64,000 bases of DNA from Xiphydria camelus (lineage: Eukaryota > Arthropoda > Insecta > Hymenoptera > Xiphydriidae): positions 3,482,001-3,546,000 of the forward strand of contig OY783192.1 of NCBI GenBank assembly GCA_963678675.1. The letters run 5' to 3'. Below the pieces are notes generated by a model. It was not told where the DNA came from and did no database searches. It saw nothing but the letters and a program-made list of their open reading frames with translations. The stretch's first letter is position 1. Each line of letters opens with the position of its first letter. The position numbers were made by a program, and so were the translations under genes. Shown piece after piece: positions 21,382-24,162 of this stretch.

Positions 21382-24162
21382 ATGAATAGAAAACGGGGGC
21401 GTTCTGTTACAGGCCAAGGTCATATAGTATCAAAGAGGTTGCGCTCAGAATTTCCTAGTGATTTACAAGATGAATCTAGACAGGACTTGTCTGATGAAAT
21501 AAGAAAATTTGCTAAAAGTGTTGCCGGCAGAGAAGATACACCTAGGTTTAATAAGTTCTTAGATTTTTTAATTAAAAAAGAAGGGAAAAAATGTCTAGAA
21601 GTTCTGAAAAGAGAAGGAGTAAATTTAACTAGAATGTCCAGTATTTTAGGTAAAGCAGGAGCCAATTCTTCTGAAGCCTTTAAAGACTTATATGATCTTT
21701 GGTTTGATGAAGAAGGAAATAAAACACGATATTTAAAAACTCTAGAAGAAAATGGAGTAAATCTAGCTAATATGTCCAGTATGTTAAGTAAAGCAGGAGC
21801 CAATGCTCGTAAAGCTTTTAAAGACTTATATGACCTGTGGTTTGATAAACAAGGAAATAAAACGCGATATTTAAAAACTCTAGAAGAAAACGGAATAAAT
21901 CTATCTAACATATCCAGTATTTTGAATGGAACAGGAGCTAACGCTGCTAAAGCTTTTAAAGACTTATATAACCTGTGGTTTGATGAGGAAGGAAATAAGA
22001 CACAATATTTAAAAACTTTAAAAAGAGAAAAAACAAGTCTATCTAATATATCCGGCATTTTAAGTGGAGCAGGAGCTAATGCTCCTAAAGCTTTTAAAGA
22101 CTTATATGACCTGTGGTTTGATGAAGAAGGAAGTAAAACACAATATTTAGAAATTCTAAAAGAAGAAGGAATAAACCTGACTAATATGTCCAGTATTTTA
22201 AGTGGAGCAGGAGCTAATGCTCCTAAAGCTTTTAAAGACTTATATAACCTTTGGTTTGATAAGCAAGGAAAGAAAACACAATATTTAAAAACTCTAGAAG
22301 AAAAAGGAGTAAAACTAGCTAATATGTCCAGTATTTTAAGTAGAGCAGGAGCTAATGCTCCTAAAGCTTTTAAAGACTTATATAACCTGTGGTTTGATGA
22401 AGAAGGAAATAAGACACAATATTTAAAAACTTTAGAAAGAGAACAAATAAATCTATCTAATATATCCGGTATTTTAAGTGGAGCAGGAGCTAATGCTCCT
22501 AAAGCTTTTAAAGGCTTATATGACCTGTGGTTTGATGAAGAAGGAAGAAAAACACAATATTTAAAAACTCTAGAAAAAGAAAGAATAAGTCTATCTAATA
22601 TATCCAGTATTTTGCATGGAGTAGGAGCTAATACTCCTAAAGCTTTTAAAGAACTATATAACACCTTTTTTGATAAGCAGGGAAATAAAACACAATATAT
22701 AAAAATTCTAGAAGAAAAAGGAATAAATCTATCTAATGTATCCAGTATTTTGAATGGAGCAGGATCTAATGCTCCTAAAGCCTTTAAAGACTTATATAAC
22801 CTTTGGTTTGATAAACAAGGAAATAAAACTCAATATTTAAAAACTCTAGAAGAAAAAGGAGTAAATCTAGCTAATATGTCCAGTATTTTAAGTAAAGCAG
22901 GAGCTAATGCTCCTAAAGCTTTTAAAGACTTATATGACCTGTGGTTTGATAAAGAAGGAAATAAAACACAATATTTAAAAACTCTAGAAGAAAACGAAAT
23001 GGGCATAGCTAATATATCCGGTATTTTAAGTGGAGCAGGATCTAATACTTCTAAAGCTTTTCAAGATTTATATGACCTTTGGTTTGATAAACAAGGAAGT
23101 AAAACACAATATTTAAAAACTCTAGAAAAAGAAGGAATAAATCTAGCTAGAATATCGAGTATTTTGCATGGGGCAGGAGCTAATGTTCCTAAAGCTTTTA
23201 AAGAGTTATATGATTGTTGGTTTGATGCAAAAGGAAAGAAAAAACAGCATTTAAAGCATTTTATTAAGAAAAAAGATGGGGAAAGAAGTTTTACGCTGTA
23301 TAATATATCCGGTATTTTAAGTAAAGCAGGAGCTAAAGCTAAAGATGCTTTTGAAAGATTGCATAATATTTGTTTTAATGACGAAGGAAAAAGGACAGAA
23401 CTTTTAGATGATTTCTATGATGCAGGTTTTATGCCAAGTAACTTATCCTCTGCATTATGTGGAACAGGAGTTTGTGCTTCTTCTGCTTTAGAAAGATTAC
23501 ATAGTGTTTGTTTTAACGAGAAAGGAAAAAGGACAGAACTTTTAAATGATTTCTATAAGGCGGGTTTTATACCTGCTAATCTGTGCAGTATGTTGTGTGG
23601 AGCAACAGATGATCTAGAAAATTTTCATGATTTTTGTTTTAAAGGAAAAGGAAAAAGGTATTTAAATCACTTCTTAAATGAGGCAGAAAGTTTTACGCTG
23701 AGTAATTTATCTAAAATATTGCATGGAGCAGGAGCTAACATTTATTCTGCTTTAGAAGATTTTCATGATGTTTGTTTTGATGAGAAAGGAAACAAAATGC
23801 AGCTTTTAGGTGATTTCCGTAATGCAGGTTTTGTGCCAAGTAATTTATCCAATATATTATCCATGGCAGGAAATAATGCCACTTATATTTTAAGAAATTT
23901 TCATGAATGTTGCTTTAATAAAGAAAATTATTTAAATCATTTCTTAACCGAGAACAAACTTTTTACGCCGAAAGATTTATCTAAGATATTATATGGAATA
24001 GGAATTAATATTTGTCCTATTTTTGGAAAATTGCATGATCTTTGTTTTGATAAAGCAGGAAACAAAACAAGTTATTTGAACAATCTTATCGAACATCACC
24101 CATCCCGCGAGATATTTAATATATTACGTGAAAAAATTAGAAAAGCTCCTTCTTTTTCTTAA
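21382..24162 (+). CDS. Intronless 18-repeat protein, TALE/BAT-like, probable HGT
   Basis: 926 codons, ATG to TAA, AT-rich with no intron. An in-frame TGA at 21361 makes this ATG the start. Residues 2-21 hold two basic clusters (RKRGR and KRLR), spaced like a bipartite nuclear localisation signal. A helical cap follows, then from residue 79 come twelve close repeats of 46 residues (138 bp) and six more diverged, Cys-richer ones up to about residue 905. The consensus is roughly G-I/V-N-L-x-N-I/M-S-S-I-L-x-x-A-G-A-N-A-x-K-A-F-K-D-L-Y, then D-E-E-G-N-K-T-x-Y-L-K-T-L. The last repeats open GF-x-P-x-N-L-S or F-T-x-x-x-L-S, close to the start of TALE-like and BAT-like repeats, and vary after I-L as TALE repeats do. 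Known TALE repeats are 33-35 residues, so these carry about 12 extra. Inferred role: sequence-specific nucleic-acid binding by an endosymbiont-derived effector. No Xanthomonas-type activation domain or secretion signal was seen. Other superhelical repeat folds remain possible. Confidence 0.85.
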   Translation: MNRKRGRSVTGQGHIVSKRLRSEFPSDLQDESRQDLSDEIRKFAKSVAGREDTPRFNKFLDFLIKKEGKKCLEVLKREGVNLTRMSSILGKAGANSSEAFKDLYDLWFDEEGNKTRYLKTLEENGVNLANMSSMLSKAGANARKAFKDLYDLWFDKQGNKTRYLKTLEENGINLSNISSILNGTGANAAKAFKDLYNLWFDEEGNKTQYLKTLKREKTSLSNISGILSGAGANAPKAFKDLYDLWFDEEGSKTQYLEILKEEGINLTNMSSILSGAGANAPKAFKDLYNLWFDKQGKKTQYLKTLEEKGVKLANMSSILSRAGANAPKAFKDLYNLWFDEEGNKTQYLKTLEREQINLSNISGILSGAGANAPKAFKGLYDLWFDEEGRKTQYLKTLEKERISLSNISSILHGVGANTPKAFKELYNTFFDKQGNKTQYIKILEEKGINLSNVSSILNGAGSNAPKAFKDLYNLWFDKQGNKTQYLKTLEEKGVNLANMSSILSKAGANAPKAFKDLYDLWFDKEGNKTQYLKTLEENEMGIANISGILSGAGSNTSKAFQDLYDLWFDKQGSKTQYLKTLEKEGINLARISSILHGAGANVPKAFKELYDCWFDAKGKKKQHLKHFIKKKDGERSFTLYNISGILSKAGAKAKDAFERLHNICFNDEGKRTELLDDFYDAGFMPSNLSSALCGTGVCASSALERLHSVCFNEKGKRTELLNDFYKAGFIPANLCSMLCGATDDLENFHDFCFKGKGKRYLNHFLNEAESFTLSNLSKILHGAGANIYSALEDFHDVCFDEKGNKMQLLGDFRNAGFVPSNLSNILSMAGNNATYILRNFHECCFNKENYLNHFLTENKLFTPKDLSKILYGIGINICPIFGKLHDLCFDKAGNKTSYLNNLIEHHPSREIFNILREKIRKAPSFS
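21616..23270 (+). repeat. Twelve tandem 138-bp coding repeats
   Basis: Direct tandem repeats within the 926-codon ORF. Eleven units are exactly 138 bp (46 codons); the twelfth carries four extra codons. Units share blocks such as AAAGCTTTTAAAGACTTATA at the DNA level, so expansion by unequal exchange or gene conversion is recent compared with the six diverged units downstream (about 23280-24095). Confidence 0.93.

Follow-up and report, generated by a model that had tools for sequence, protein, structure and literature searches.

A Wolbachia-derived open reading frame with a predicted TALE-like repeat fold in a chromosome of the hymenopteran Xiphydria camelus

Proteins resembling transcription activator-like effectors (TALEs) are described, in those parts of the literature that were available, from plant pathogens, fungal endosymbionts, marine metagenomes and Mycoplasma hominis. 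Here we describe an open reading frame (ORF) that encodes tandem repeats with a predicted TALE-like fold, was acquired from Wolbachia and lies in a chromosome of Xiphydria camelus, within a stretch of 64,000 nucleotides (contig OY783192.1, positions 3,482,001 to 3,546,000 of assembly GCA_963678675.1) hereafter called the window.

The nearest described systems each share part of this design. BurrH/Bat (Btl) of Mycetohabitans rhizoxinica has in common with the present family an endosymbiont origin, a predicted superhelix and polymorphic repeats (PMC4066763, available portion), and BurrH is the best structural match of one bacterial relative, P0074. The present family differs in its longer repeats, its third helix and the lack of a significant sequence match, and its DNA binding is presumed. 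With the TAL effectors of Xanthomonas and the RipTALs of Ralstonia it shares the order helix, variable loop pair, helix, and TALEs are the top structural matches; it differs from them in repeat length, in the kind of host, in a second loop residue that is mostly glycine and in leaving the TALE model PF03377 unmatched. MhoF and MhoH, from integrative and conjugative elements of M. hominis, have polymorphic repeats of 32 residues and two helices, with the putative repeat variable di-residues (RVDs) KG, FN, NG, HG and QG in interhelical loops (PMC6813540, as far as the available text goes). All but FN also occur among the pairs of the present family, and the likeness is one of description only, as it is for MOrTL1 and MOrTL2 from a marine metagenome, which are called TALE-like in the accessible parts of PMC11261895 and PMC5472282. 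Nuclear Wolbachia insertions such as the ankyrin genes of ants likewise place a Wolbachia gene in a host chromosome through repeated transfers; the available part of that account does not describe the present repeat family (PMC13320244).

Our searches of open-access papers, preprints excluded, found no paper whose title and opening lines of abstract describe TALE-like proteins in Wolbachia, Orientia or Rickettsia; an earlier description elsewhere is possible. By word search, the available text of PMC5472282 mentions neither Wolbachia, Orientia and Rickettsia nor insects and arthropods, that of PMC11261895 neither insects nor Rickettsia, and that of PMC6813540 neither Wolbachia nor Orientia. 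As far as these searches show, a family with a TALE-like fold in Rickettsiales and some other bacteria is previously undescribed.

A Wolbachia-derived ORF in a host chromosome

The ORF begins with ATG, contains no internal stop and is AT-rich (GC 0.31; GC at third codon positions 0.17). Its product (isoelectric point 9.0) opens with a short basic stretch, followed by a helical N-terminal part and then the repeats. An earlier note, made from the sequence alone, had claimed an intronless frame of 926 codons with 18 repeats of mostly 46 residues, and both the ORF call and the repeat spacing agree: 17 starts were detected by script and one more lies in the final 109-residue segment, and the spacing between starts is 46 residues in 14 of 16 cases (51 and 42 in the other two). 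At the DNA level, a 300-nucleotide reference recurs in 11 copies at an exact spacing of 138 nucleotides, the other ten being 73-87% identical to it. We take a reverse-strand ORF at 21420-22664 to be a shadow of these repeats.

A protein database search returned 75 proteins at E <= 0.001 (best E = 0; 7991 candidates scored), which puts the likeness well outside chance, and those with names come from Wolbachia, Orientia, Roseibium and arthropods (bees, wasps, ants, spiders, a fly, a butterfly and an isopod). By identity the nearest is a 598-residue protein of the Wolbachia carried by the fly Myopa testacea, identical at 400 of 426 aligned positions (94%). The top bit scores belong to long-array proteins predicted in bees (P0001 and P0002, 61-70% identity), which partly matches the outcome that the earlier note had named as counting against it, namely best homologs that are ordinary insect proteins with introns; the tree, however, sets the arthropod copies among Wolbachia ones.

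That tree has 54 rows and covers the last 310 residues, consisting of the window protein and those among 80 proteins whose match spans at least 230 residues; the Wolbachia proteins P0034 and P0054 were left unlabelled in it and several branches are long. It unites the window protein with the Myopa testacea Wolbachia protein and a spider fragment (Araneus P0036) at support 100/100. Four further well-supported groups each join a Wolbachia-type protein to arthropod proteins: Rhagoletis and Armadillidium with a W. pipientis protein, Bicyclus and Megalopta with genome G043, a Trichonephila protein with G073, and an Araneus protein with the Wolbachia of Apotomis and G067, where 'Wolbachia-type' is, for some of the numbered genomes, judged by the proteins and neighbours found in them. 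The sequences from Rhagoletis, Bicyclus and Megalopta belong to contigs of 1.8-102 Mb. Contamination may account for some of the 'arthropod' rows (Armadillidium P0005 carries the label UNVERIFIED_CONTAM, and Araneus P0036 is on a 4.3-kb contig). Because arthropod copies are scattered among Wolbachia sequences at several points of the tree, the simplest reading is that transfer from Wolbachia to arthropods happened repeatedly. For the window, closest identity and tree placement both identify Wolbachia as the source of the ORF, in keeping with the horizontal acquisition from a bacterial endosymbiont proposed earlier.

The ORF is integrated in the host chromosome, as had been claimed, with host DNA on both sides (Table 1). 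The contig is at least 19.9 Mb long; a dispersed host repeat lies to the left, and on the right a partial copy of an alpha-N-acetylgalactosaminidase gene begins 12 nucleotides past the stop codon. This gene is insect-like (best named match the ant Ooceraea biroi, 88%); the partial copy aligns to 9710-10652 and, by eye, is broken by small frame-changing differences. Wolbachia-type DNA homology spans about 21370 to 24160-24163, so that at the right junction bacterial and host DNA come within a dozen bases of each other. A stretch upstream of the ATG is probably also transferred, judging from its DNA matches (query 244-274 in six of the 13 genomes, 213-249 in one), and with it the inserted piece comes to about 2.9 kb. 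Just 5' of the ORF, a terminator-like hairpin with a T run at 21264-21282 may be transferred bacterial intergenic DNA. The gene duplicate directly adjoins the transferred ORF.

With the window protein as query, the ORF is the sole match found in the genome (357 Mb, 38 contigs), and a longer Wolbachia relative with more domains finds the same ORF only. The two Ty3-type retrotransposons of the window are 100% identical over 8301 nucleotides, each with its own 4-nucleotide site duplication, and were therefore recently active. Together with the 94% identity to the Wolbachia protein, the position beside a broken gene copy and these recent elements, and the longer branch on the host side (0.036, against 0.014 for the Wolbachia relative), the single copy tilts the odds toward a non-functional nuclear Wolbachia insertion that is intact only through recency, a reading compatible with the explanation we prefer for the bacterial family. 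Against it, all 926 codons are still open, and long wasp proteins from Trichogramma, Eretmocerus and Leptopilina (P0032, P0038, P0039, P0040, P0042 and P0043), only 29-38% identical to that of the window, suggest that some copies persist, a comparison that is biased because annotation tends to pass over broken copies. Pairwise ratios of nonsynonymous to synonymous change between the window and five Wolbachia-type loci are 0.40-0.72 over 309-315 codons and mostly reflect change within Wolbachia.

A search with the family profile matched 24 of 343 genomes in the order of Wolbachia wPpe, 17 of them at E <= 1.1e-9, and the seven weaker ones may be due to chance. Named carriers (eight loci) are the Rickettsia of Bradysia coprophila with three, Wolbachia wPpe, Orientia chuto, Roseibium, and metagenome-assembled genomes of Neisseriaceae and Flavobacteriaceae. 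The three Rickettsia loci (L002, L003 and L004) encode large array proteins in one genome, with open frames of up to 2005 codons, and one array frame of L002 continues into a stretch that by eye resembles a transposase. A nine-row bacterial profile found 11 proteins, its own first row included, none with an informative name. No relative was among the 14 pattern matches of the window protein in a scan of genome contigs, nor in the viral contigs searched, and two Escherichia phage tail proteins (27-29% identity) were read as chance matches of repetitive proteins.

Predicted fold and variable loop

The AlphaFold model of the array has a predicted local distance difference test score of 88; residues 1-34 of the protein, ahead of the array, score under 50. 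Each repeat is modelled as a short helix 1, a 4-residue loop, a 15-residue helix 2, a turn and a helix 3, and the helix-loop-helix repeats form a predicted superhelix. In a Foldseek search of the PDB the sole significant match was a TAL effector, and structural re-ranking placed TALE and BurrH entries first and mTERF next; the shorter-repeat bacterial relative matched to BurrH was modelled separately. These results give good support to a TALE-like fold with a variable pair in the loop that joins helix 1 to helix 2, and the longer, three-helix variant of the TALE/BAT-like superhelix that had been suggested came through the fold comparison, which revealed no rival fold ahead of it.

A core profile seeded with 22 repeats gathered 721 repeats from 88 of 89 proteins, some of which are near-copies. 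Position 9 is leucine in 694 of the 721. The adjoining position 10, inside the predicted loop (model residues 135-138), has the highest mean within-array entropy both in bacterial arrays (1.56 bits; next 1.13) and in the others (1.98; next 1.96), and position 11 ranks third and seventh, respectively, among 26 columns. The commonest pairs at positions 10-11 (n = 702) are SG (127), NG (108), HG (108), GG (38), CG (25) and SK (22). In the window, 16 of the 18 repeats gave a detected pair, in the order GK, SK, NG, SG, SG, SR, SG, HG, NG, SK, SG, HG, SK, CG, HG, SM. A hypervariable di-residue is thus found in the interhelical loop, though weaker than in canonical TALEs. None of the 20 most strongly coupled column pairs includes position 10 or 11; many involve sparsely filled end columns, which makes this comparison little informative.

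Several results weigh against a true TALE or a TALE-type code. Known TALE repeats are 33-35 residues long, whereas those of the window mostly have 46 and 21 aligned repeats of the family 38-58. The TALE-model search suggested by the earlier note came back empty: PF03377 matches neither the window protein nor eight relatives, and rises above its cut-off in none of 18 family-holding genomes, control genomes likewise giving no positive. In searches with family profiles BurrH turns up at no better than E 0.87, behind unrelated proteins, or fails to turn up. Only 20 of 69 arrays have position 10 as their most variable column. In TALEs the second loop residue reads the base; position 11 is glycine in 473 of 721 repeats and most repeats would therefore read T. 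If a code exists, more of it may be carried by the first loop residue. The pairs NG, HG, KG and QG are reported to bind thymine when they occur in TALEs, and the M. hominis TAL-like repeats have them as putative RVDs (PMC6813540, available text). We would file the family as TALE-like by predicted fold and not as a TALE family member by sequence.

Matches of the window array to other families were read as repeat artefacts. No single stretch passes in any of 15 Pfam and 14 PHROGs families; in NCBIfam a stretch passes alone in three of 11 models, all far under their cut-offs. Two matches are less easily dismissed. The candidate defence model PDC-S27 matches the window protein at E 6e-13 with two stretches passing (it matches P0003 with none passing and is unlisted for the other seven members tested), and Pfam HTH_3 exceeds its cut-off on the Orientia protein P0066, where it matches five stretches (E 9e-13), perhaps through a resemblance of helix-loop-helix repeats to that domain.

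An array with this fold might instead bind protein, as ankyrin and other symbiont alpha-solenoids do, its variable loop touching a peptide partner. We consider this rather unlikely, given that two members, modelled separately, both find their best structural matches among DNA-binding proteins and that the four loop pairs named above serve, in TALEs and in the TAL-like repeats of Mycoplasma (available text of PMC6813540), as RVDs or as putative ones. A eukaryotic repeat protein of the host's own, of mTERF or Armadillo type, is very improbable: the best TALE and BurrH structural scores (13.4 and 12.9) are about twice as high, the window protein has neither an mTERF match in Pfam up to E = 1 nor a predicted half-ring fold, and its closest relatives in the tree are Wolbachia.

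Proposed role of the repeat array

Some bacterial members join the array to catalytic domains. Three Wolbachia proteins carry a SET domain (P0034, P0054 and P0060) and one an OTU domain (P0017); the C-terminal region of P0003 and P0023 looks cysteine-protease-like to us by eye, and Pfam finds no cysteine-protease domain there. The insect ORF carries the array without SET, OTU or protease-like parts.

We consider it most likely (probability about 0.65) that the ORF represents the repeat region of a Wolbachia protein from a TALE-like superhelical family, copied into the chromosome, and that in bacteria the array acts as an addressing module. It would wrap nucleic acid, most likely host DNA, contacting it through the helix 1-helix 2 loop of each repeat, and would bring along the SET methyltransferase, the OTU domain or perhaps a protease on some members, so that the effector would locate host DNA and modify the chromatin or proteins at that place. 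The SET-array fusions are possible addressed symbiont methyltransferases. The transferred copy would keep the array and a basic start resembling a nuclear localization signal (NLS) without the enzymatic part, and in the insect would be either a recent insertion heading to decay or a repeat-only DNA-binding protein; DNA binding, nuclear action and any host use of the ORF are what we infer.

A bolder proposal, tentative and in our view short of an even chance, is that these proteins form a separate TALE-like DNA-reading class, with three-helix repeats of 38-58 residues and their own loop code, used by intracellular bacteria of animals; fusions to SET, OTU or protease parts would rewrite arthropod chromatin at chosen sites, and arthropods would have acquired such genes many times and kept some. 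If true, Wolbachia, Orientia and Rickettsia would have a sequence-addressed means to act on host chromatin, which would bear on the control of sex and development by reproductive parasites, and the repeats would offer a new scaffold for DNA-targeting tools. The predicted family proteins of the arthropod groups listed above allow tests in hosts without living Wolbachia.

Among the loci of Wolbachia-type relatives (not the donor's), one lies near RadC and helix-turn-helix genes (L061) and another near a mutL (L059), surroundings that the available part of PMC9203015 describes for prophage WO (WO-PC2, WO mutL).

Feature coordinates and neighbouring sequence

Table 1. Features of the window, with the basis of each assignment
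Feature	Coordinates	Strand	Basis and remarks
Wolbachia-derived ORF for a predicted TALE-like repeat protein	21382..24162	+	926 codons, intact; closest-relative comparison
Basic N-terminal segment, NLS-like	21382..21450	+	by eye
18 tandem repeats, mostly 46 residues	21622..24096	+	repeat search and model; end of last repeat judged by eye
Stretch upstream of the ATG matching Wolbachia-type genomes	21282..21343	+	DNA search, 13 genomes; 86-94%
Dispersed host repeat, directly after the first long terminal repeat (LTR) element; left host flank	20989..21072	+	82 places among the matches listed, self-match included (40 of 495 candidates scored)
Alpha-N-acetylgalactosaminidase gene, partial copy; right host flank	24175..25123	+	96% identity
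Alpha-N-acetylgalactosaminidase gene, fuller	about 8113..10541	+	six exons by eye, upstream exons untraced
Ty3-type LTR retrotransposon	12688..20988	-	family and repeat search; 823-nucleotide LTRs, site duplication ACGG
Ty3-type LTR retrotransposon, second copy	27395..35695	-	repeat search; site duplication TAGC

Elsewhere in the window, an ORF at 36632-37144 matches Pfam zf-U1 (U1 zinc finger, E 1.8e-21) and is probably a host U1-C gene or a copy of one. A run of 200 N at 11373-11572 is either a masked stretch or an assembly gap. An inverted repeat lies at 44848-44935 and 45344-45431, its 88-nucleotide arms 100% complementary.
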